Shown piece by piece: positions 8,330 to 19,515 of a stretch of 64,000 nucleotides of DNA (within the stretch, counting starts at the first letter, position 1; each line of letters starts with the position of its first letter). The notes under the pieces were generated by a model, which ran no database searches, had not been told where the DNA came from, and saw only the letters and a list, made by a program, of their open reading frames with translations. The position numbers and the translations under genes are program-made. Origin of the DNA: Rhizobacter sp. SG703 (GTDB taxonomy: Bacteria; Pseudomonadota; Gammaproteobacteria; Burkholderiales; Burkholderiaceae_C); contig NZ_JAAZQK010000005.1 in the NCBI RefSeq assembly GCF_012275445.1, positions 248,001 to 312,000 on the forward strand, in the 5' to 3' direction.

Positions 8330-8348
8330 AATGAGAATCGTTCTCGTT
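8330..8348. promoter_or_regulatory. Fur-box-like palindrome
   Basis: AATGAGAATCGTTCTCGTT is a near-perfect 9-1-9 palindrome with the GAGAAT-n-GTTCTC arrangement of Fur sites. It lies 64 bases upstream of tonB, in front of an iron-transport gene set, which supports repression by Fe-Fur. It also lies upstream of the divergent small secreted gene. Confidence 0.8.
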
Positions 8349-8411
8349 TGTGTTAAAGTTTTTGAAGCAGTTTGAAGTTGTCCTTCGCCGTACCGTTCTT
8401 CGCAACACACC

Positions 8412-9122
8412 ATGCCCGCCGTTCCCGTCTCCGCGACGCCTTCGCCGTTGCCGCCGCTCAGCCGGCGGCCGGTGCGCAGCGACGGGCTGTCGCGGGCGCA
8501 ATTGCGGGGCGTGGTCGCGGCCATCGCGGCGATCCACCTCGGCGCCGGCTGGGCCATCCTGCAGGTGCCTGCGGTGCGCGAGGCGGTGGTGCAGGCCGCG
8601 CCGATCTTCGTCGACCTGATCGCGCCGCCGGCCCCGCCGACGCCGCCGGCTCCCCCGCCGCCGCCGGTCAGGCCGGTGACCCGCACACCGCCGCCGCCGA
8701 CGCCACTGGTCACCGCCGCGCCATCACCCGCGCCGGCCGCGTTCGTCGCGCCGCCGCCGCCGGTCGAGCTGCCGCCGCCGCCCGCGCCGGTCGCGGTCGA
8801 GGCACCTCCCGCGCCGCCTGCGCCACCGGCCCCGCCGAAGCAGATCCCGGCTTCCGCGGTGCGCTACCTGAAGGCTGAGCCGCCCGAGTACCCGCGCGCG
8901 TCGAAGCGCCTGAAGGAAGCCGGCAGCGTCGTCGTGCGCGTCTGGATCGACGAGGGCGGCCTGCCGCAGTCGGTGCAGGTCGGCAAGTCGTCCGGCTACC
9001 CGCGGCTCGACGAGGCCGCCATCGACGCGGTGCGCAGGTTCCGCTTCGAGCCCTACACCGAGAATGGCCGCCCGAGCGCGGGCTGGGCCCTGATCCCGTT
9101 GAATTTCGATATGGAGAAATGA
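8412..9122 (+). CDS. tonB: Energy transducer TonB
   Basis: A 236-residue periplasm-spanning protein that passes proton-motive-force energy from ExbB/ExbD to outer-membrane receptors. There is a single membrane anchor at about residues 33-51, then a proline-rich rigid stretch (about 71-143, mostly Pro, Ala and Val). The C-terminal TonB domain runs from 147 and carries the expected YP motif in PPEYPRASKRL and the helix-sheet pattern up to FEPYTENGRP. The last four bases of the gene overlap exbB (ATGA). No strong ribosome site precedes ATG 8412, but the cytoplasmic head fits the family. First gene of the iron block, directly behind the Fur-like palindrome. Confidence 0.95.
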   Translation: MPAVPVSATPSPLPPLSRRPVRSDGLSRAQLRGVVAAIAAIHLGAGWAILQVPAVREAVVQAAPIFVDLIAPPAPPTPPAPPPPPVRPVTRTPPPPTPLVTAAPSPAPAAFVAPPPPVELPPPPAPVAVEAPPAPPAPPAPPKQIPASAVRYLKAEPPEYPRASKRLKEAGSVVVRVWIDEGGLPQSVQVGKSSGYPRLDEAAIDAVRRFRFEPYTENGRPSAGWALIPLNFDMEK

Positions 9123-9871
9123 CCGTGAATGCAGACGCTGGCTTGGGATTCGGCCACTTCATCGCGCAAAGCGATGCGGTGGGCAAGACGCTGCTCGGCA
9201 TCCTGGTGCTGATGTCGATCGCGTCCTGGGTGATCATCGTGATCAAGGGCCTGTCGCTGGTCTCGCGCCGCCGCCACAGCCAGAGCTTCCTGAATTTCTT
9301 CTGGAACGCGACCTCGCTCGAGGCCGTCGCCAACGAGATCACCACGCACGGCGTGCACGACCCGTTCTCGCACCTGACCAGCCATGCAATGCATGCGCAG
9401 GCCCACCATGCGAAGTACGGCGCCGCCAAGCTCGAAGAGGCCGGCACCTCGGGCGAATTCGTCACGCGCACCATCAAGAAGGTGCTCGACGAAGAAACCA
9501 CGCGGCTCGAGAACGGCCTCGCGATGCTGGCCACCGTCGGCGCCACCGCGCCTTTCGTCGGGCTGTTCGGCACCGTCTGGGGCGTCTACCACGCGCTGGT
9601 CGCGATCGGCATGAGCGGCGCCGGCACGCTGGACAAGGTCGCCGGCCCGGTCGGCGAGGCGCTGATCATGACCGGCCTGGGCCTCGCGGTCGCGATCCCC
9701 GCGGTGATGGGCTACAACTGGCTGACACGCGCCAACCGCGTGATGTCGTCCAAGCTCGATGCCTTCGCGTACGAGCTGCACACCTTCGTGTCGATGGGCC
9801 AGCCGCTCGGCAACGAAGCCGCCCAGCCGGCCAACGTGCGCGCACTGGCCTCGCGGCCGGTCGCCGCCTGA
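9119..9871 (+). CDS. exbB: TonB-system proton channel subunit ExbB (MotA/TolQ/ExbB family)
   Basis: A 250-residue inner-membrane protein forming the proton channel with ExbD. The first helix is at about residues 22-42, there is a long cytoplasmic loop, and the two conserved helices lie in the region TVGATAPFVGLFGTVWGVYHAL through GEALIMTGLGLAVAIPAVMGYN, the MotA_ExbB signature. ATG 9119 overlaps the tonB stop; a GTG at 9125 is an alternative start. Translationally coupled to tonB, and followed after 16 bases by exbD. Confidence 0.95.
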   Translation: MTVNADAGLGFGHFIAQSDAVGKTLLGILVLMSIASWVIIVIKGLSLVSRRRHSQSFLNFFWNATSLEAVANEITTHGVHDPFSHLTSHAMHAQAHHAKYGAAKLEEAGTSGEFVTRTIKKVLDEETTRLENGLAMLATVGATAPFVGLFGTVWGVYHALVAIGMSGAGTLDKVAGPVGEALIMTGLGLAVAIPAVMGYNWLTRANRVMSSKLDAFAYELHTFVSMGQPLGNEAAQPANVRALASRPVAA

Positions 9872-9887
9872 CGCGAGACCGCAAGCC

Positions 9888-10313
9888 ATGGCATTCGCCA
9901 GTTTCGATTCGAAGAACGCCGGCGCGCCGATGGCGGAGATCAACATGGTCCCGCTGATCGACGTGATGCTGGTGCTGCTGGTGATCTTCATCATCACCGC
10001 GCCGCTGCTGACCAATGCCGTCAAGCTGGAGCTGCCGAAGGCGAGCTCGCAGGTCAACCAGTCGCCGGCCGACAAGGTCGAGTTTGCGATCGACGCCGGC
10101 GGCCTGCTGTACTGGAACGGCGAGCTCGTCACCCGCCCCGAGGCGCGCAAGCGCTTCGCCGCCGAAAGCGGCAAGCAGCCGCAGCCCGAGATCCACCTGC
10201 GCGCCGACCAGGCGGTGGCGTACCGCTATGTGGCGCAGACGCTGGCCGATGCATCGAAGGCCGGCCTGACGAAGGTCGGCTTCGTCAGCGAGCCGGAAGC
10301 GGCGCAGCCATGA
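9888..10313 (+). CDS. exbD: TonB-system proton channel subunit ExbD
   Basis: A 141-residue ExbD/TolR protein: a short cytoplasmic head, one membrane helix with the proton-carrying aspartate Asp25 (INMVPLIDVMLVLLVIFI), and a periplasmic domain rich in charged residues ending in FVSEPEAAQP. Length is standard. The upstream frame stays open within exbB, but ATG 9888 matches the conserved N terminus. Its stop overlaps the start of a 56-residue membrane ORF. Confidence 0.95.
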   Translation: MAFASFDSKNAGAPMAEINMVPLIDVMLVLLVIFIITAPLLTNAVKLELPKASSQVNQSPADKVEFAIDAGGLLYWNGELVTRPEARKRFAAESGKQPQPEIHLRADQAVAYRYVAQTLADASKAGLTKVGFVSEPEAAQP

Positions 10314-10480
10314 ACGACCGCGCAACGCTGCGGCTGTGGGGCTGGCCGGTGGCACTGGCGGTGCTGAGCGCCGTCGGGCTGCTGTCTGCGCTGCTGGGCG
10401 ACGGCGCGTGGGACGCGCTGTCGTGGGCCGCGCTCGGCCTGCCGACCGGCGTCGCGGGCTGGCACGCGCTGAGGCACTGA
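10310..10480 (+). CDS. Tiny membrane protein coupled to exbD
   Basis: A 56-residue ORF (starts MNDRATLRLWGWPVAL, ends GVAGWHALRH) whose ATG overlaps the exbD stop as ATGA. It has two hydrophobic stretches separated by a short GDGAWDA loop, so it probably forms a two-helix hairpin in the inner membrane. The overlap, membrane character and codon use like its neighbours support a real gene. No family recognised; it may be a small accessory subunit of the ExbBD channel. A terminator-like hairpin follows 20 bases downstream. Confidence 0.7.
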   Translation: MNDRATLRLWGWPVALAVLSAVGLLSALLGDGAWDALSWAALGLPTGVAGWHALRH

Positions 10481-10499
10481 ACCGACCGATTTCTCCATC

Positions 10500-10531
10500 C
10501 AGCCGGCGCCGGTCTCGGGCCGGCTGTTTTT
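10500..10531 (+). terminator. Rho-independent terminator or attenuator before the receptor gene
   Basis: An 8-bp stem, CAGCCGGC (10500-10507) with GCCGGCTG (10519-10526), is followed by five T residues. It separates tonB-exbB-exbD from the receptor and downstream genes, so the block is either two transcripts or one attenuated transcript. Confidence 0.7.
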
Positions 10532-10615
10532 ACGAATCCCCGTTTTCACGAATCCCCTGTCCCCGCCAGCCACCGCGCGAGCCACGACAACAACAAACCC
10601 CACCAGGAGCACCCC

Positions 10616-12892
10616 TTGGCCTACATCAAGAGCCGCAAGCACGCGGCGAGCAAGACATCCGCGTTGGCCCAGATCGGCCTGATGGCCGTCGCGCTGCCGG
10701 TCGCCGCGCAGACCGCAGCGGTCGCCGACGCCCCGAAGAAGCCCGACGCCCCCGAAACCACGCTGCCCGCGCTGCGCGTCACCGGCCAGTCCGGCAGCGA
10801 GTTCAAGGCCGACAACGCGTCGAGCCCGAAGTTCACGCAGCCGCTGCTCGACACGCCGCAGACCATCACGGTGATCAAGAAGGAAGTGCTGCAGCAGCAG
10901 GTCGCGACCACGCTGGCCGAGGCGCTGCGCAACACCCCGGGCATCACGATGCAGCTCGGCGAGAACGGCAACACCACGACCGGCGACTCGATCTTCATGC
11001 GCGGCTTCGACACGACGAACAGCATCTTCGTCGACGGCATCCGCGACCTGGGCAACATCTCGCGCGACGTGTTCAACGTCGAGCAGGTCGAGGTGATCAA
11101 GGGCCCGTCGGGGTCCGACAACGGCCGCGGCGCGTCGTCGGGCTACGTCAACCTGGTGTCGAAGACCGCCGGCCGCGAGGCCTTCGACAACGGCACGCTG
11201 ACGGTCGGCACCGCCAGCCGCGTGCGCGCCACGGCCGACCTGAACCGGCCGCTGGACCTCGGCATCCCGGGCTCGGCGCTGCGCCTGAACGTGCTCGCGC
11301 AGGACTACGGCACGCCCGGCCGCGACGAGGTCAAGAGCAAGCGCTTCGGCTTCGCGCCGTCGCTGGTACTGGGCCTCGGCACGCCGACGCGCACGACCTT
11401 CAACTACCTGTACGTCGACCAGAAGAACGTGCCGGACGGCGGCGTGTCGACCTTCGGCGTGTCGGACTGGAAGCCAGCGGCGAACATGCAGACCGGCGCG
11501 CCGGTCGACTCGAAGAACTTCTACGGGTCGACCGACGATTTCGACGACGTCACGCTGCACATGTTCACCGCGCGCATCGAGCACGACCTGTCGGCCGGCA
11601 CCACGCTGCGCAACACGACGCGCCTGGGCCACACCGAGCAGGACTTCGTGCTGACCGGCGTCAATGCCGTGACCTCGCCCACCGGCACCGACCCCGCCAC
11701 CTGGACCGTCGCGCGCACCCGCCAGGGCCGCCACCAGACCAACGAGATCCTGACCAACCAGACCAACCTGAGCACCGAGTTCAAGACCGGCGGCATCGGG
11801 CATTCGCTGTCGACCGGCTTCGAGTTCATCTACGAGCGCCAGAACCAGCAGAACCTGGTGGTCAGCGGCACCCAGAAGGCGGCCAACCTGTACCACCCGA
11901 GCACCGGCGACGCATTCCAGCCGCTGGTCAGCAACGGCGCGTACACCAAGGGCAGCACGCTGAGCGCGGCCGCCTATGCGTTCGACACGCTGAAATTCTC
12001 GGAGCAGTGGCTGCTCAACGGCGGCCTGCGCTGGGAGAAGTTCCACACCGAGACGAACAGCGCCGCCCTCAACAACGCGACGCCGGCGGTGCTGGTGCAG
12101 AACCCGCCGCTCGGGCTGACCGACAACCTGCTGAGCTGGAAGGCCGGCGCGCTGTTCAAGCCGACGCAGGACGGCAGCGTCTACCTGACGGTGTCGAATT
12201 CCTACCAGCCGCCGGGCGGCGCGAACTTTTCGCTGAACGTCTCGAGCACCAACCAGGCGAGCCCGAGCACCGATCCGCAGGAAGGCAGCAACATCGAGCT
12301 CGGCACCAAGTGGGACCTGTTCGGCGGCAAGCTGGCGGCCACCGCGGCGATCTACCGCAGCGAGAACAAGAACGAGCTGGTCTCCGACGGTGCCCCGGTG
12401 CCGACCTTCACCCAGGTCGGCAAGCGCCGCGTCGACGGTGTCGAGCTCGGCCTGGTCGGCCAGGTGACGCCGGCGTTGAACCTGAGCGCGGGCGTGGCCT
12501 ACATGGACCCGAAGATCATCCGCGGCGTGCCGGCCGGCACCAGCGCGAACAACGGCGGCCTGATCGTCTACTCGCCGAAGGTGACCTTCAGCTCGTGGGC
12601 CTCGTACAAGGCGCTCGACAAGCTGACCGTCGGCGGCGGCGTGCGCTATGTCGACACCGTCGCGCGCACCAGCAACCTCGCCCCCGGCACCACGCCCAAC
12701 CTGATCAACACCGAGTCGTACACGGTGGCTGATGCGATGGTGGCGTACGACCTCAGCAAGAACGTCTCGCTGCAGCTGAACGTCAACAACCTGTTCGACA
12801 AGGAGTACGTCGCATCGGTCAACAATGGCGGCTCGCGCTACAAGCCGGGCGAACCGCGCAACGCACTGCTGAGCGCCAACTTCAGGTACTGA
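10616..12892 (+). CDS. fiu: TonB-dependent catecholate-siderophore receptor (Fiu/PiuA type)
   Basis: A 758-residue outer-membrane receptor. TTG 10616 is preceded by AGGAG seven bases upstream. It has a signal peptide to about residue 32, then a TonB-box-like TLPALRVTG at 49-57. The plug domain contains [19 protein letters not shown] and the motif [19 protein letters not shown] 22-strand barrel ends in the aromatic SANFRY. Near its end, [14 protein letters not shown] is typical of siderophore receptors. The very next gene is piuC, as in the fiu-ybiX and piuA-piuC pairs of other bacteria, which points to monomeric catechol-type ligands. The precise ligand cannot be read from the sequence. Confidence 0.9.
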
Positions 12893-12897
12893 TCGTC

Positions 12898-13578
12898 ATG
12901 ATGCTCCACGTGCCCGGCGTGCTGACGCCGTCCCAGGTCGCCGAGATCCGCGAGGCCGTCGATGCGGCCGACTGGAACGACGGCCGAGAGACGGTCGGTG
13001 CGCAGGGTGCGCAGGTCAAGCGCAACCGCCAGCTGCCCGAGGCCGGGCCGCTGACGCAGCGCTTCGGCGCCGTCATCCTGAAGGCGCTGGAGGCGAATCC
13101 GCTGTTCGTCTCGGCCGCGCTGCCGCTGCGCTACGTGCCGCCGCTGTTCAACCGCTACGAAGGCGGCGAGCAGTACGGCCTGCACGTCGACGGCGCGGTG
13201 CGCGGCGTGCCGGGCACGAGCCTGCGGCTGCGCACCGACCTGTCGTGCACGCTGTTCCTGAGCGAACCGGGCGACTACGACGGCGGCGAGCTGGAGGTGA
13301 TGGACACCTACGGCGCGCACGAGGTCAAGCTGCCGGCCGGCGACCTGGTCCTCTACCCGTCGAGCAGCCTGCACCGCGTGCTGCCGGTCACGCGCGGCGC
13401 GCGCGTCTGCTCGTTCTTCTGGCTGCAGAGCCTAGTGCGCGACGACGCGCAGCGCGGCATGCTGTTCGAGCTCGACCAGGCGATCCAGCGGCTGCGCGAG
13501 CGCCATGGCGACACCGCCGAGCTGCTCGCGCTGACCGGCCACTATCACAACCTGCTGCGGATGTGGTCCGAGGTCTGA
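12898..13578 (+). CDS. piuC: PKHD-type Fe(II)/2-oxoglutarate hydroxylase PiuC (YbiX)
   Basis: A 226-residue dioxygenase, the standard length. The iron-binding facial triad is visible as His96 and Asp98 (LHVDGAV) and His159 (SSLHRVLPV), with the 2-oxoglutarate-binding Arg169 ten residues later in TRGARV. It starts five bases after the receptor stop at one of two adjacent ATG codons (12898 or 12901) and its own stop overlaps the next start (TGATG). Genes of this family nearly always accompany a TonB receptor and are iron-regulated; the substrate has not been settled. Confidence 0.93.
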
Positions 13579-14225
13579 TGGACTCCGCAGCACCGGCGAA
13601 GCATGCGACGGCCCCCGCGCCGCAGCGCGCCTACTGGCTGAAGACGCTGCACCAGTGGCACTGGATCAGCTCGGCGCTGAGCCTGGTCGGCCTGCTGCTG
13701 TTCACCGTCACCGGTTTCACGCTGAACCATGCCTCGCAGATCGAAGCGAGGCCGCAGGTCGCGAAGCGCGCGGCACAGGTGCCGCCGGCGCTGCTGCCGC
13801 TGGTCACCGCGACGCCGGCAGACGACAAGCAGCCGCTGCCGCCGGCGCTGGCCGCCTGGGTCGAGCAATCGCTCGCCATCGAGGTGGCCGGCCGCGCGGC
13901 CGAATGGTCGGCCGAAGAGATCTACCTGTCGCTGCCGCGCCCCGGCGGCGACGCCTGGCTGCGCATCGACCGCGCCGCCGGCGCGCTGGACTACGAGCGC
14001 ACCGACCGCGGCTGGATCTCGTACCTGAACGACCTGCACAAGGGCCGCCACACCGGCACCGCCTGGAGCTGGTTCATCGACGTGTTCGCCGCGTCGTGCC
14101 TGGTGTTCTCGGTGACCGGGCTGTTCATCCTGAAGATGCATGCCGCCAAGCGCCCGAGCACCTGGCCGGTGGTGGCCGGCGGCCTGGTGCTGCCGCTGCT
14201 GCTGGCGATCCTGTTCATCCACTGA
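13578..14225 (+). CDS. PepSY-associated transmembrane protein, putative electron conduit
   Basis: A 215-residue inner-membrane protein of the PepSY_TM-like group. Helix 1 spans about residues 28-48 (WISSALSLVGLLLFTVTGF) with His residues on each side (HQWHW and LNHA). A ~100-residue periplasmic loop follows. Then NDLHKGRHTG leads into helix 2 (WFIDVFAASCLVFSVTGLFIL), and a last helix (VVAGGLVLPLLLAILFIH) ends the protein. The paired histidines resemble b-heme ligands in the PepSY reductases (FoxB/PiuB). By family knowledge it could carry electrons across the membrane to reduce ferric siderophores. It overlaps piuC and is followed at 17 bases by DUF2271. Confidence 0.88.
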   Translation: MDSAAPAKHATAPAPQRAYWLKTLHQWHWISSALSLVGLLLFTVTGFTLNHASQIEARPQVAKRAAQVPPALLPLVTATPADDKQPLPPALAAWVEQSLAIEVAGRAAEWSAEEIYLSLPRPGGDAWLRIDRAAGALDYERTDRGWISYLNDLHKGRHTGTAWSWFIDVFAASCLVFSVTGLFILKMHAAKRPSTWPVVAGGLVLPLLLAILFIH

Positions 14226-14242
14226 TTTGCAGAAGGACCCCG

Positions 14243-14761
14243 ATGAAACTGAGCTATTCGATGGCGATGGGCGCGGCCGCCGCGCTGGCCGCGCCGGCCT
14301 TCGCGGCCGATGCGACCCTGAAGCTGGAGCTGCCGCAGCTGAGCGTGGCCGAGTACCACAAGCCCTATGTGGCGGTGTGGGTCGAGAAGGCGTCGGACCA
14401 GGGCTTCGCGTCCAACGTCGCGCTCTGGTACGACCTGAAGAAGCGCGACAACGGCGGCGCGAAGTGGCTGAAGGACATGCGCACCTGGTGGCGCAAGAGC
14501 GGGCGCGAGCTGCAGACGCCGATCGACGGCGTCACCGCGGCGACCCGCGCGCCGGGCGAGCATGTGATCGGCCTGTCGGCCGCGAAGGGGCTGGCCGCGC
14601 TGCCGCCGGGCAACTACCAGCTGGTGGTCGAGGCGGCGCGCGAGAACGGCGGCCGCGAGGTGGTGCGCCTGCCGTTCGACTGGCCGGTGAAGGCGCCGCA
14701 GACCGCGAAGGCGCAGGGCGAGCATGAGCTCGGCGCCGTGGCGCTCGAACTGAAACCCTGA
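14243..14761 (+). CDS. DUF2271 periplasmic protein with ApbE flavinylation motif
   Basis: A 172-residue exported protein with a Sec signal (MKLSYSMAMGAAAALAAPAFA, cleavage near 21). The body matches DUF2271 (WYDLKKRDNGGAKWLKDMRTWWRKSGRE). Residues 95-101 read DGVTAAT, which fits the ApbE target consensus D-x-x-T/S-x-A-T, so FMN may be attached to Thr101. Its neighbours make sense of that: a PepSY electron conduit just upstream, apbE two genes downstream, and a flavodoxin reductase at the end. I infer a covalently flavinylated periplasmic electron carrier for iron reduction. It has AGAAGGA just upstream of ATG 14243. Confidence 0.87.
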   Translation: MKLSYSMAMGAAAALAAPAFAADATLKLELPQLSVAEYHKPYVAVWVEKASDQGFASNVALWYDLKKRDNGGAKWLKDMRTWWRKSGRELQTPIDGVTAATRAPGEHVIGLSAAKGLAALPPGNYQLVVEAARENGGREVVRLPFDWPVKAPQTAKAQGEHELGAVALELKP

Positions 14762-14771
14762 GGAGCCGCGC

Positions 14772-15617
14772 ATGAAGACCCTTCATCGAATGAACCTCGC
14801 GCTGCTTGCCGCGGTCGCGTCGGCCACGCTGCTGCCCGGTGCCGCGCAGGCGCATCGCACCTGGCTGGTGCCGTCGGCCACCGTCGTCAGCGGCCGCGAC
14901 GCCGCCGTCACGGTCGACGCCGCGGTCTCCGAAGACCTGTTCGAGTACGACACCAACGCGTTGGCGCTGGACAAGCTCAGCGTCGTCGCGCCCGACGGCA
15001 GCCTGGTCACGCCCGAGAACCTCAGCACCGCGCGCCGCCGCAGCAGCTTCGACGTGAGGCTCGCGCAGCCGGGCACCTACCGCATCGTCAACAGCAGCGA
15101 GAGCGTGTTCGCGAACTACAAGCTGAACGGCGAGCCGAAGCGCTGGCGCGGTGCCGCCGAGGCGATGGCCAAGGAGATCCCGGCCGACGCGAAGGAGCTG
15201 CAGGTCACGCGCATGCAGAGCCGGGTCGAGACCTGGGTCAGCAATGACGCGAAGGGCGAGCAGGGCGACAAGCCGGCCACCGACAAGGCCTTCGCACCGC
15301 AAGGCAGCGGCCTCGAGTTCATCCCGCTGACCGCGCCGACCGACCTGAGCGCCGGCGACAGCTCCAGCTTCCGCGTGCTGCTCGACGGCAAGCCCGCTGC
15401 CAACCTCGACGTGACGATCCTGCGCGGCGGCAACCGCTACCGCTACAAGCTCGGCGAGATCGCGCTGAAGACCGACGCGCAAGGCCAGTTCAGCGTCAAG
15501 TGGCCGGAGGCCGGGCGCTACTGGATCGGCGTCAGCCACAGCGTGCGCGCGGCCGAAGGCACGCCGCCGACGCGCCGCGTGAACGCCAGCGCGACGGTCG
15601 AAGTGCTGCCGCAGTAA
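14772..15617 (+). CDS. DUF4198 exported protein
   Basis: A 281-residue exported protein with a signal peptide ending in AQA near residue 27, followed by HRTWLVPSATVVSGRDAAVTVD, the characteristic N-terminal motif of DUF4198 (PF10670). The fold is expected to be beta-sandwich repeats, with a nickel/cobalt-transport-periplasmic-like character in the family. The region KLGEIALKTDAQGQFSVKWPEAGRYWI is the conserved C-terminal part. It lies 10 bases after DUF2271 and 8 bases before apbE. DUF2271 and DUF4198 often travel together in iron clusters; the role may be metal or siderophore handling in the periplasm, unproven. Confidence 0.88.
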   Translation: MKTLHRMNLALLAAVASATLLPGAAQAHRTWLVPSATVVSGRDAAVTVDAAVSEDLFEYDTNALALDKLSVVAPDGSLVTPENLSTARRRSSFDVRLAQPGTYRIVNSSESVFANYKLNGEPKRWRGAAEAMAKEIPADAKELQVTRMQSRVETWVSNDAKGEQGDKPATDKAFAPQGSGLEFIPLTAPTDLSAGDSSSFRVLLDGKPAANLDVTILRGGNRYRYKLGEIALKTDAQGQFSVKWPEAGRYWIGVSHSVRAAEGTPPTRRVNASATVEVLPQ

Positions 15618-15625
15618 AGGCGACG

Positions 15626-16678
15626 ATGCAGACGGTGCGGGTGCTGGTCCCGCAGCGCATCGCGACCCGTGCGCCGGCGCTCGGCGCGCAGGTGCACGCG
15701 CTGCAGGGCGTCACGATGGGCACGAGTTGGTCGGTGCGCGTCGCCGGCCCGCGCGCCCTCGACCTCGCGCGGGTGGCGCAGGCGATCCAGCAGGAGCTGG
15801 ACCTCGTCGTCGCGCAGATGAGCCCATGGGAAGCGGGCTCGGACATCAGCCGCTTCAACCGGGCGCCGGCCGGCAGCTGGCACACGTTGCCCGAGGCCTT
15901 TGCCGAGGTGCTGGATGAGGCGATGCAGGTCGCGCGCGACAGCGACGGCGCCTACGACCCGACCGCCGGCGCGCTGGTCGACGCCTGGGGCTTCGGGCCG
16001 CGGCAGCGCCACGACGAGCCCGGTTTCATGCCGCCCGGCGAGGTGGCGGTGCAGGCGGCGCGGGCCGTCAGCGGCTGGCCGCGGCTGCAGACCGGCCTGC
16101 GTGGCGTGCGGCAACCCGGCGGCCTGCGGCTGGACCTGTCGGCGATTGCGAAAGGCCATGCGGTCGATCGCGTCGTGCAGCGGCTCGCGCGTGCATTCGG
16201 GCTCGACGACGTGCTGGTCGAGGTCGGCGGCGAGCTGCGCGGCGAGGGCGTCAAGCCCGACGGGCAGCCGTGGTGGGTCGCGCTGGAACCGGTACCGTGC
16301 TGGCAAGACGGCGCATGGCAACTCGATGCCGATTCCGGATCGACGCCGACGCCGATCTCGACGCGGATTGCGCTGCACGGCCTCGCCGTCGCGACCTCGG
16401 GCGACCACCGGCGCTTCTTCACGCACGATGACCGCCGCTACCCGCACACGATCGACCCGCGCACCGGCCGGCCGATAAACCACGGCGTGGCGGTCGTGAC
16501 GGTGCTCGACGCGTCGTGCATGCGTGCGGATGCGCTGTCGACGGCGCTGACGGTGATGGGACCGCAGGCCGGCCTGCCGTGGGCCGCGCAGCGCGGCATC
16601 GCGGCCTTGATCGTCACGCGGCGCGCCGACGGCGGGCTCGACGAACACGTCACGCCGGCCTTCGCGGCGCTGGCGTGA
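15626..16678 (+). CDS. apbE: FAD:protein FMN transferase ApbE
   Basis: A 350-residue flavin transferase that attaches FMN from FAD to a Thr in target proteins. Family landmarks are GVTMGTSWSVRV near residue 31, FNRAPAGSW, DGAYDPTAGALVDAWGFGP, the LDLSAIAKGHAVDRV block, HTIDPRTGRPI and DASCMRADALSTAL. Unlike most ApbE proteins it shows no signal peptide or lipobox: the conserved core starts about 30 residues in and those residues are not hydrophobic. If the start is right, the enzyme would act in the cytoplasm or leave by another route. The candidate target, DUF2271, is encoded two genes upstream. Confidence 0.93.
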   Translation: MQTVRVLVPQRIATRAPALGAQVHALQGVTMGTSWSVRVAGPRALDLARVAQAIQQELDLVVAQMSPWEAGSDISRFNRAPAGSWHTLPEAFAEVLDEAMQVARDSDGAYDPTAGALVDAWGFGPRQRHDEPGFMPPGEVAVQAARAVSGWPRLQTGLRGVRQPGGLRLDLSAIAKGHAVDRVVQRLARAFGLDDVLVEVGGELRGEGVKPDGQPWWVALEPVPCWQDGAWQLDADSGSTPTPISTRIALHGLAVATSGDHRRFFTHDDRRYPHTIDPRTGRPINHGVAVVTVLDASCMRADALSTALTVMGPQAGLPWAAQRGIAALIVTRRADGGLDEHVTPAFAALA

Positions 16679-16688
16679 CGTCGCGCGC

Positions 16689-18062
16689 ATGAACCCGACC
16701 TCGCGCGCGCTGGCGGCGGCCGCGGTGGCGCTCGCCTACCTCGCGTTCTGCGCCTTCATCGCCTGGCGCGAACGACGCCGGCGCGGCGCGGCATCGCGCG
16801 ACGCCGCCGCGCTCGACCATGCCGACGCGAGCGCCGCGCCGGTGCTGGTCGCGTTCGCGAGCCAGACCGGCTTCGCCGAACAGCTCGCGTGGCAGAGCGC
16901 GCGGCTGCTGCACACCGCCGGCGTGCCGGTGCGGCTGCTGCCGCTCGGCGAATTGCGGCCCGACGAGCTCGCGCGCACCGAGCGGGCGCTGTTCATCGTC
17001 AGCACCTACGGCGAGGGCGACGCGCCAGATGCGGCCTCGGCCTTCGCGCGCCACATGGCCGACGGCGGCCAGCCGCTGCCGCGGCTGCACCATGCGGTGC
17101 TGGCGCTCGGCGACCGCAGCTATGCGCAGTTCTGCGCCTTCGGCCGCCGGCTCGACGGCTGGCTGCAGGTGCAGGGCGCGACGCCGCTGTTCGAGCGCAT
17201 CGAACTCGACAACGAGGATGCGGCGGCGCTGAAGCAGTGGCAGCAGCAGGTCGCCCACCTCGCCGGCACCGTCGACCTGCCCGACTGGCAGGCCCCCGGC
17301 TTCGACGACTGGCGGCTGGTTGCACGGCATGTGCTGAACGACGGCAGCAGCGCCGCGCCGGTCTGTCACCTGGAACTGGAGCCGGCCGACGGCACGCCGC
17401 TGCCCGCGTGGCAGGCCGGCGACCTGGTGCAGGTGCAGGCGCCGGCCGACCCGCAGCGGCCGCGGGAGTACACGATCGCGTCGGTGCCTTCGGCGGGCCG
17501 GCTGCACCTGATGGTGCGGCAGGAGCGGCATGCGGATGGCAGCCTCGGCGTCGCGTCGGGCTGGCTGACCGCGCAGCTGCAGCCGGGCGATCGGGTGCCG
17601 CTGCGGCTGCGCGCGCACGGCAGTTTCCGCATCGGCGACAACGCGGCGCGCCCGCTGGTGCTGATCGGCAACGGTACCGGCCTGGCGGGCCTGCGCGCCC
17701 ACCTGATGGCCCGCGCGGCCCAGCCGGCACCGGCGGCCTGCTGGCTGTTGTTCGGCGAGCGCCAGGCGGCGCATGACGCGCATTACGCGGCCGACACCGA
17801 ACGCTGGCGGGCCGACGGCGTGCTCGCGCAGGTCGACCGGGTGTTCTCGCGCGACCAGCCGGCGCGCCGCCATGTTCAGCACCGCGTGCTGGAAGAAGCC
17901 GAGCGGCTGCGCGACTGGGTGGCCGGCGGCGCCGCGATCTACGTGTGCGGCAGCCTGGCCGGCATGGCCGCCGGCGTCGACGACGCACTCGCGCAGGTGC
18001 TCGGCGCGGCGCAGCTCGCGGCGCTGGCCGACGCCGGCCGCTACCGCCGCGACGTCTATTGA
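16689..18062 (+). CDS. Membrane-anchored flavodoxin/FAD reductase (CysJ-like)
   Basis: A 457-residue diflavin reductase. A membrane helix at about residues 6-25 anchors it. A flavodoxin domain follows (FASQTGFAEQLAWQSA for the FMN phosphate loop, STYGEGDAPD, LALGDRSYAQFCAFG). From about 215 comes a ferredoxin-NADP reductase module with the FAD motif REYTIAS and the NADPH motif GNGTGLAGLRAHL, ending in the typical C-terminal YRRDVY. It should take electrons from NADPH on the cytoplasmic side and hand them to a membrane partner, most likely the PepSY protein in the same operon. Last gene of the iron block; a repeat lies downstream. Confidence 0.9.
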   Translation: MNPTSRALAAAAVALAYLAFCAFIAWRERRRRGAASRDAAALDHADASAAPVLVAFASQTGFAEQLAWQSARLLHTAGVPVRLLPLGELRPDELARTERALFIVSTYGEGDAPDAASAFARHMADGGQPLPRLHHAVLALGDRSYAQFCAFGRRLDGWLQVQGATPLFERIELDNEDAAALKQWQQQVAHLAGTVDLPDWQAPGFDDWRLVARHVLNDGSSAAPVCHLELEPADGTPLPAWQAGDLVQVQAPADPQRPREYTIASVPSAGRLHLMVRQERHADGSLGVASGWLTAQLQPGDRVPLRLRAHGSFRIGDNAARPLVLIGNGTGLAGLRAHLMARAAQPAPAACWLLFGERQAAHDAHYAADTERWRADGVLAQVDRVFSRDQPARRHVQHRVLEEAERLRDWVAGGAAIYVCGSLAGMAAGVDDALAQVLGAAQLAALADAGRYRRDVY

Positions 18063-18764: not shown

Positions 18765-19080
18765 CGTTCGTCTCCTTCGACAGAGAACGGCGACGCACCA
18801 TGCGAGGCCGTCGACACGCATTCTGCGAGCGTTCGATGCGCAGCGCGAATGCCCCTCGACGGCACGTGTCGAGCACCTCGGGAGCACGCAGATGAGGCTC
18901 ACAGGCGACAAAACATCGCGCGAAGGCGCATGAATGCGTGTTTCACCTATGAAAACTGCTTCTCAATGCAGCACTCTCGCAGTAGTATTCGCTCCGCACG
19001 TGGACCTGGAGAACCGAGAGCTCATGCGGCTCTCACCCAACCCGGGCACATCAACAACGTTATTGATGGAGAAATTCAAC
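18765..19080. other. 316-bp intergenic region between DJ-1 and SWIB genes
   Basis: Divergent spacer holding the promoters of both flanking genes. I see two weak inverted repeats, CTCGAC/GTCGAG (18855-18873) and GAGAGC/GCTCTC (19016-19034), and locally AT-richer DNA around 18930-18970. No convincing gene or sigma-70 promoter could be assigned. Confidence 0.5.
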
Positions 19081-19515
19081 ATGGCAACTGCGAAACCGCC
19101 CGCTCGGAAAGCGGCTCCTGCAAAGAAAGCGGCACCGGCCAAGAAGGCTGCACCCGCGAAGAAGGTAGCGGCCAAGAAGGCCGCCCCGGCCAAGAAGGCC
19201 GCTCCCGCCAAGAAGGCAGCGCCGGCCAAGAAGGCCGCCGCGAAGAAGGCCGCTCCGGCCAAGAAGCGCACCCCGAACGCTGCCTTCATGAAGGCCATGA
19301 CCCCGAGCCCGACGCTGGCTGCCGTGATCGGCGCCAACCCGCTGCCGCGCACGGAAGTGACCAAGAAGGTGTGGGAGTACATCAAGAAGAACGACCTGCA
19401 GGACAAGGCCAAGCGCACGATGATCAACGCCGACGCCAAGCTGAAGGAAATCTTCAAGAAGGCCCAGGTCTCGATGTTCGAGATGACCAAGCTGATCAAC
19501 GGCCACCTGAAGTAA
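19081..19515 (+). CDS. SWIB/MDM2-domain protein with histone H1-like Lys/Ala tail
   Basis: A 144-residue basic protein. Residues 8-62 are repeats of AAPAKK/AAAKK, like the tail of histone H1 and of bacterial H1-like proteins, and should bind DNA without sequence preference. Residues 66-144 form a SWIB domain (TPSPTLAAVIG, TEVTKKVWEYIKKNDLQD, MTKLINGHLK). This fusion is known in chlamydiae and several Burkholderiales and is thought to act in nucleoid organisation. ATG 19081 follows a GGAGAA site; an ATG 15 bases upstream is an alternative. A strong terminator follows, so the gene is monocistronic. Confidence 0.9.
   Translation: MATAKPPARKAAPAKKAAPAKKAAPAKKVAAKKAAPAKKAAPAKKAAPAKKAAAKKAAPAKKRTPNAAFMKAMTPSPTLAAVIGANPLPRTEVTKKVWEYIKKNDLQDKAKRTMINADAKLKEIFKKAQVSMFEMTKLINGHLK

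Follow-up and report, generated by a model that had tools for sequence, protein, structure and literature searches.

A probable iron-uptake block of the PepSY–DUF2271 type in Rhizobacter, with an ApbE flavin transferase that has no recognisable export signal

At positions 8330–18062 of a 64,000-nucleotide stretch of DNA from Rhizobacter sp. SG703 (hereafter the window), eleven genes form a block in which a DUF2271 protein, carrying an export signal and a predicted site for covalent flavin mononucleotide (FMN), is encoded close to an ApbE flavin transferase that has no recognisable signal peptide. We read this block as a PepSY/DUF2271 iron-reduction system whose DUF2271 protein is flavinylated in the cytosol before its export by Sec, a reading that, taken whole, we consider moderately likely. 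The PepSY–DUF2271 relay is a known, published model; the signal-less ApbE is what the comparison adds. Gene content, acceptor motif, DUF2271 export signal, the missing ApbE signal and the conservation and phylogeny of that lack were all read from sequences.

In this model, a Fiu-type receptor powered by its own TonB–ExbBD would import Fe(III)-chelates to the periplasm, and electrons would pass from NADPH through an inner-membrane diflavin reductase to PepSY (probably with two bis-His hemes), then to FMN on Thr101 of DUF2271 and on to Fe(III); Fe(II) entry would perhaps take place through FeoB, which is encoded elsewhere in the genome. ApbE, which here looks like a cytosolic enzyme, would most likely modify the DUF2271 precursor with FMN before it leaves the cell, drawing on the flavin adenine dinucleotide (FAD) of the cytosol, and Sec would export the flavinylated, still unfolded protein. 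We infer the hemes, the electron path, Fe(III) as the acceptor, and the cytosolic place and timing of flavinylation. The relay is supported by synteny, motif conservation, published flavinylation of a DUF2271 protein with its loss on Thr-to-Ala exchange, published Fur control, the lowered fitness of Caulobacter transposon mutants in ethylenediaminetetraacetic acid (EDTA) and the presence of FeoB; a cytosolic ApbE is supported by signal counts, single-ApbE genomes, a tree clade, an ordered N-terminus and cysteine content.

An ApbE without a visible signal peptide

The presumed substrate and its enzyme are encoded as follows (positions are those of the whole stretch, and all eleven genes lie on the + strand).
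14243–14761, + strand: DUF2271 protein (155 bits) with signal peptide, predicted FMN acceptor; DGVTAAT at residues 95–101, acceptor Thr101
15626–16678, + strand: ApbE flavin transferase (257 bits), no visible signal peptide; R-V-L-V-P at residues 5–9

An earlier note on this DNA had taken the second gene for an ordinary ApbE. Fold and family are indeed those of ApbE (PF02424, 257 bits; Vibrio ApbE 6nxi, Z 40.0, root-mean-square deviation 2.1 over 306 residues), but no signal peptide is visible. Its sequence begins MQTVRVLVPQRIATRAP...; an AAAGG ends 5 bases upstream of the ATG, and no upstream in-frame start leads to a qualifying hydrophobic stretch; an overlooked upstream start that would provide a signal was thus ruled out by a scan of stop-to-stop frames.

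A signal was called where a start codon is followed, early in the chain, by an uncharged hydrophobic 10-mer. This rule found a signal in 97/101 DUF2271, 93/94 DUF4198 and 28/32 DUF3570 proteins, all exported, and in none of 27 cytosolic PiuC proteins. By this rule, a signal was present in only 3/87 ApbEs encoded beside DUF2271 and 1/23 beside DUF3570, compared with 29/42 elsewhere, in a set that includes the window itself and near-copies, merged only where the N-terminal stretch was identical. Two of the three positives beside DUF2271 (L034 and L162) are clear lipoproteins, and the third (L155, the same gene as L184) is doubtful, as it passes this rule only weakly (1.64) and fails a stricter one. 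That stricter rule left 2 ApbEs with a signal beside DUF2271, 1 beside DUF3570 and 27 elsewhere, and is too strict, since it detects only 32/101 DUF2271 and 5/32 DUF3570 signals. An earlier, looser rule was abandoned because it gave 14/86 ApbEs a signal, mostly on R-V-L-V-P-V-A-L-S-A-P in Cupriavidus, and the rule was accordingly tightened and recalibrated. Among the 13 negatives counted elsewhere, three (L097, L197, L210) belong to DUF2271 clusters that lie outside the short stretch. L001 is separated by about 6.4 kb from a DUF3570 gene and has counterparts (L182, L183) in two other Rhizobacter genomes, and in four (L113, L115, L204, L209) a signal can be made out by eye. In the tree, L213 falls with the DUF3570 type; L212, a divergent ApbE, has an FMN_bind gene as its neighbour. 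The last of the 13, L094, is an exception, a signal-less ApbE that has no DUF2271 or DUF3570 gene within several kb; a further exception is L146, an ApbE with a hydrophobic N-terminus in a stretch with DUF3570.

For a wider sample (n = 60), we took 58 stretches, each some 11 kb long, that surround DUF2271 matches of a phylum search, and added L218 and L219. Several genes are common to this sample and the first set, and two genomes contribute two or more stretches. The sample held 29 stand-alone signal-less ApbEs (28 by rule, L243 by eye), one lipoprotein ApbE (L285, the same gene as L162), six ApbE–DUF2271 fusions with an N-terminal signal and 24 stretches without an ApbE nearby, so that 1/30 stand-alone ApbEs had a signal. 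In the six fusions (L252, L254, L255, L257, L258, L259), ApbE and DUF2271 form one frame of 492–529 residues, the enzyme being joined to its own substrate; the acceptor motif of L254 is degraded.

The window ApbE, like nearly the whole DUF2271-linked clade, therefore lacks a recognisable signal peptide or lipobox, the marks of an extracytosolic ApbE. The published survey used an extracytosolic ApbE to select its clusters rather than to define the system; because of the signal-less ApbE, we class the window block as a variant, rather than a plain member, of the PepSY-DUF2271-DUF4198-ApbE system.

Upstream of the catalytic core, a motif resembling R-V-L-x-P is found in 68/86 DUF2271-linked ApbEs, in 0/22 DUF3570-linked and in 0/24 other rows. 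The invariance of R5 and P9 in a 37-row alignment was left unused, since starts had been picked by that motif and loci without it left out. In the AlphaFold model of the window ApbE (predicted local distance difference test score, pLDDT, 93.6), residues 4–7 form a strand and the mean pLDDT over residues 1–10 is 86; solved ApbEs align with it only from residues 16–22 on (first 19 rows), and the N-terminus therefore looks like an ordered addition and not a removable signal. Cysteine is missing from mature DUF2271 and DUF4198 proteins in 67/67 loci and present in ApbE (41/60), PiuC (13/26) and the reductase (50/50). Signal-less ApbE cores have 1.25 cysteines per 100 residues (63 rows) against 0.34 in signal-bearing ones (35 rows; Mann–Whitney p = 4e-8, uncorrected for relatedness).

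These data bear on the explanation that flavinylation takes place in the periplasm as published, and that the signal-less ApbE gets there by an unrecognised route, such as an atypical signal or co-transport with a partner (hitch-hiking). Published models do place ApbE outside the cytosol (PMC8238504, PMC12052999), and both signal-bearing ApbE–DUF2271 fusions and lipoprotein ApbEs beside DUF2271 (L034, L162/L285) exist. However, the in-frame start regions lack a qualifying hydrophobic stretch, the model shows an ordered N-terminus, and the cysteine content is closer to that of the cytosolic neighbours. Hitch-hiking is further disfavoured by the DUF2271 signals, which are Sec-type by eye and show no clear twin-arginine motif, a simple RR pattern occurring in 5/68 rows, all Cupriavidus. 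We therefore consider this explanation rather unlikely.

Genomes and phylogeny of the signal-less ApbEs

We compared 30 genomes, hand-picked from DUF2271 matches, with signals partly read by eye. No FMN_bind match was found in 20 of them, and their 24 ApbEs comprise 23 signal-less proteins and one doubtful case (G487, L155/L184). In 18 of these 20 genomes (G487 with its doubtful signal among the 18), the single ApbE is the DUF2271-linked one; if DUF2271 is flavinylated in genomes of this kind, it must be by a signal-less ApbE. Among the ten genomes with FMN_bind, nine have at least one signal-bearing ApbE, and a perfect split by FMN_bind was rejected because of the exception, G700. The divergent signal-less ApbEs encoded beside FMN_bind genes at L212 and L290 (G700 and G699) depart from the association of FMN_bind with an exported ApbE. 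In the window genome (6.5 Mb in 29 contigs), we found three ApbEs, none with a visible signal, one DUF2271 locus, four DUF3570 loci and no FMN_bind match; one of the three belongs to a DUF3570–ApbE pair (L002, G000:C13:184208-185961).

A quick IQ-TREE analysis covered 98 ApbE cores, which represent 146 after clustering; N-termini were removed, and truncated genes (L162, for example) were left out. The tree is unrooted, and three of its labels were assigned by eye. All 40 DUF2271-linked rows fell on one side of a branch with support 91, and the 39 signal-less ones formed a group starred at 99, outside which the lipoprotein L034 is the only DUF2271-linked row; another lipoprotein, L174, adjoins all 40. 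The DUF3570-linked signal-less ApbEs make up a separate starred clade of 22 rows, one of them labelled 'other'. The tree needs four changes of signal state, and ApbEs without a signal have at least two separate origins on it, presumably through losses of a signal rather than gains.

An alternative is that the cytosolic ApbE serves another, cytosolic target, DUF2271 being modified otherwise or not at all. There is precedent in Klebsiella, where a cytosolic ApbE acts on a soluble fumarate reductase (PMC12052999). Against it, the DUF2271 motif is conserved and occurs in no other protein of the block outside ApbE's own loop, the DUF2271-linked enzyme is the sole ApbE of 18 genomes, and the other two ApbEs of the window genome also look signal-less, one lying beside DUF3570 and one about 6.4 kb from another DUF3570 gene. 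On this evidence, a separate cytosolic target appears quite improbable.

The iron-uptake block, its acceptor motif and its published relatives

The order of genes that the earlier note had given, from tonB to the flavodoxin reductase, was borne out for all eleven families by reading frames and Pfam/NCBIfam profiles, and the Fur-like palindrome that it had placed ahead of tonB is present. The remaining features are these.
8330–8348, + strand: Fur-box-like palindrome before tonB, AATGAGAATCGTTCTCGTT
8412–9122, + strand: TonB (TonB_C, 77.1 bits)
9119–9871, + strand: ExbB/TolQ-type proton channel (MotA_ExbB, 110 bits)
9888–10313, + strand: ExbD/TolR (ExbD, 103 bits)
10310–10480, + strand: 56-residue membrane open reading frame, no family, HiuC-like by context only
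10616–12892, + strand: TonB-dependent receptor of Fiu/PiuA type (NF007349, 821 bits, cut-off 686)
12898–13578, + strand: PiuC/YbiX Fe(II) dioxygenase (Pfam/NCBIfam profiles)
13578–14225, + strand: PepSY_TM_like_2 inner-membrane protein (288 bits), candidate two-heme electron conduit
14772–15617, + strand: DUF4198 protein (177 bits), predicted to be exported
16689–18062, + strand: membrane-anchored diflavin reductase (flavodoxin and CysJ-like parts; flavodoxin and NAD-binding profiles), NADPH-dependent by likeness, with a hydrophobic N-terminal stretch at about residues 5–27

The neighbourhood of DUF2271 is conserved far above chance. In 67 loci encoding close DUF2271 relatives, several of them interrupted by contig ends, PepSY is present in 66, DUF4198 in 67, ApbE in 60 and the diflavin reductase in 50, and a receptor match of any strength is found in 34 and PiuC in 26. 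Four of the seven loci without ApbE end at a contig break, and three (L029, L032, L041) have none within the stretch examined. The contiguous front part, tonB-exbBD-small frame-receptor, occurs in only two Rhizobacter loci of the 67, some of which are incomplete; the window DUF2271 and its counterpart in Rhizobacter sp. Root1238 share 98% identity. At L244:5373-6455, PepSY and DUF2271 are joined in a single reading frame. A second type of cluster (L216, L218, L219 and similar) combines DUF2271, a frame of about 740–920 residues matching the reductase and usually a signal-less ApbE, with no DUF4198 match; the reductase-matching frame has a PepSY-like start by eye in L216, and the acceptor motif is often [D/N/S]-G-I-T-G-A-S.

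DGVTAAT was found at residues 95–101 of DUF2271, where the earlier note had placed it, and is the only match to D-x-x-[ST]-x-[AGPS]-[ST] in the eleven proteins outside ApbE. ApbE itself has two overlapping matches; this second site (234–242) was set aside, as it lies in a low-confidence loop of the model. The pattern D-x-x-T-x-A-T proposed before suits the window but is too narrow for its relatives, which keep D-G-x-[S/T]-x-[A/P]-T in 67/68 rows (the window included; L070 has a gap there). Across the 60 loci of the wider sample, the final Ser/Thr is conserved in 60/60 and the leading Asp in 51/60, and the poor conservation beside apbE that would have spoken against flavinylation was thus not observed. 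The window DUF2271 has an acceptor motif of the published [S/T]-x-A-[S/T] type, with A at the published G position, and its PepSY (PF16357/PF03929) is encoded together with ApbE and its presumed substrate.

These families, the motif and the relay proposed in the earlier note agree with the account of Meheust 2021 (PMC8238504). The relay is already in print and was therefore discarded as a new idea. That survey counts 3220 PepSY-like flavinylation clusters, of which 2833 contain DUF2271 and 1500 DUF4198, and proposes iron reduction and assimilation as the role of PepSY-DUF2271-DUF4198-ApbE clusters. The window shares with them the families, the proposed iron role and DUF2271 as the presumed ApbE substrate, and differs in the ApbE without visible signal.

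In the PepSY protein, His28, His51 and His154 are conserved in 67/67 rows and His188 and His215 in 66/67. The model (pLDDT 89) has helices at 14–54, 160–188 and 195–213, with His28 and His51 at both ends of helix 1, His154 before helix 2 and His188 at its end, an arrangement that would fit two bis-His hemes. The window PepSY matches Pfam PepSY_TM with 34 bits; its model had no PDB match at E 0.001, and no FoxB appeared among the matches listed by Foldseek, sequence or profile search. With the siderophore reductases FoxB and HiuB–HiuC (PMC12424826), the window shares a PepSY membrane protein with conserved His; the window PepSY is, however, of the short PF16357 form, and the account of HiuB in that paper names no flavinylated partner. 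The 56-residue frame has no Pfam or NCBIfam match. Homologues occur in nine other genomes of the same order (10/200 with its own genome), adjoining a PepSY gene of the FoxB/HiuB kind in 7/9 (five by profile, two by eye). From this context, it looks like a HiuC-type partner standing alone between exbD and the receptor, perhaps a small membrane partner of similar kind to HiuC (PMC12424826), although, unlike in HiuB–HiuC, it adjoins the receptor and not PepSY.

The palindrome AATGAGAATCGTTCTCGTT has 2 mismatches to a Fur consensus, with 0 expected in 100 dinucleotide shuffles, and L005 and L006 carry the same site. When up to 4 mismatches are allowed, sites are present in 24/67 homologous loci and in 0/201 mononucleotide-shuffled loci; in 15 of the 24, the site lies no more than about 110 bases before the PepSY gene. 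We read the block as a probable Fur-type iron-uptake block, Fur control being predicted from these sequence sites. A close parallel is known from Caulobacter (PMC12004947), where CCNA_03155-03159 and cciT-cciO comprise PepSY, DUF2271, DUF4198, a reductase and PiuA/PiuC homologues, transposon insertions lower fitness in EDTA, and Fur control is reported. The Caulobacter genes form two separate loci, whereas the window has one block with its own tonB-exbBD. In Alteromonas, DUF2271 and DUF4198 genes are enriched under iron limitation (PMC7190382).

DUF2271–PepSY might instead reduce something besides siderophore iron, such as oxidised envelope proteins or copper, and no demonstrated acceptor of DUF2271 was found in the literature covered. 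The Fur-like sites, the presence of receptor (34/67 loci) and PiuC (26/67) in the same block and the published iron data from Caulobacter (PMC12004947) and Alteromonas (PMC7190382) all point to iron, and we hold a different acceptor to be unlikely.

Downstream of the block, positions 18934–19515 of the window encode a Lys/Ala-rich protein that contains A-A-P-A-K-K repeats and, judged by eye, resembles histone H1.

Flavinylation before or after export

Published work shows that the Amantichitinum DUF2271 is covalently flavinylated by its ApbE and that flavinylation is lost on Thr-to-Ala exchange (PMC8238504). Signal-truncated forms of both proteins were co-expressed, presumably in the cytosol of E. 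coli; the reaction therefore does not need the periplasm, and its natural site is not settled by this experiment. According to a review (PMC12052999), most ApbEs seem to be secreted, and Klebsiella has a cytosolic ApbE for a soluble fumarate reductase. Both this enzyme and the window ApbE lack a signal peptide, but the Klebsiella target stays in the cytosol whereas that of the window is exported. Among the search listings and passages covered, the Klebsiella case was the only one found that bears on a signal-less ApbE beside DUF2271 or DUF3570 or on flavinylation before export; the pairing of a signal-less ApbE with an exported target may already be tabulated in the supplement or figures of Meheust 2021.

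Several points weigh against flavinylation before export. The Amantichitinum ApbE was itself 'signal peptide-truncated' (PMC8238504), so that some DUF2271-linked ApbEs do have a signal, and an ApbE of Salmonella type retained in the cytosol could not replace periplasmic ApbE (cited in PMC12052999). We found no documentation in the literature covered of Sec passage of an FMN-bearing chain. The signal calls rest on a hydrophobicity rule and reading by eye, not on SignalP, and the cysteine contrast is confounded by relatedness, with only three independent pairs and no significance among them. Six fused genes put ApbE and DUF2271 on one exported chain, and the ApbE-less clusters of G390, G442, G514, G703 and G705 (five checked) lie in genomes with a signal-bearing ApbE; these fusions and clusters suggest that periplasmic flavinylation of DUF2271 is also possible. 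The cytosolic and periplasmic routes seem to be interchangeable in evolution.

More generally, we tentatively propose, as a real possibility, that two routes exist: FMN_bind targets would mostly receive their flavin outside the cytosol, from lipoprotein or Tat-type (twin-arginine translocation) ApbEs, and DUF2271 and DUF3570 targets in the cytosol, from dedicated ApbEs, whose signal would have been lost at least twice independently, followed by Sec export with covalent FMN. The literature found describes export first and flavinylation outside the cytosol afterwards. If the two-route reading is true, periplasmic FAD would no longer be needed, a widespread clade of cytosolic ApbEs with exported targets would attach a bulky redox cofactor before export, and periplasmic flavoproteins would be accounted for in genomes without any exported ApbE.

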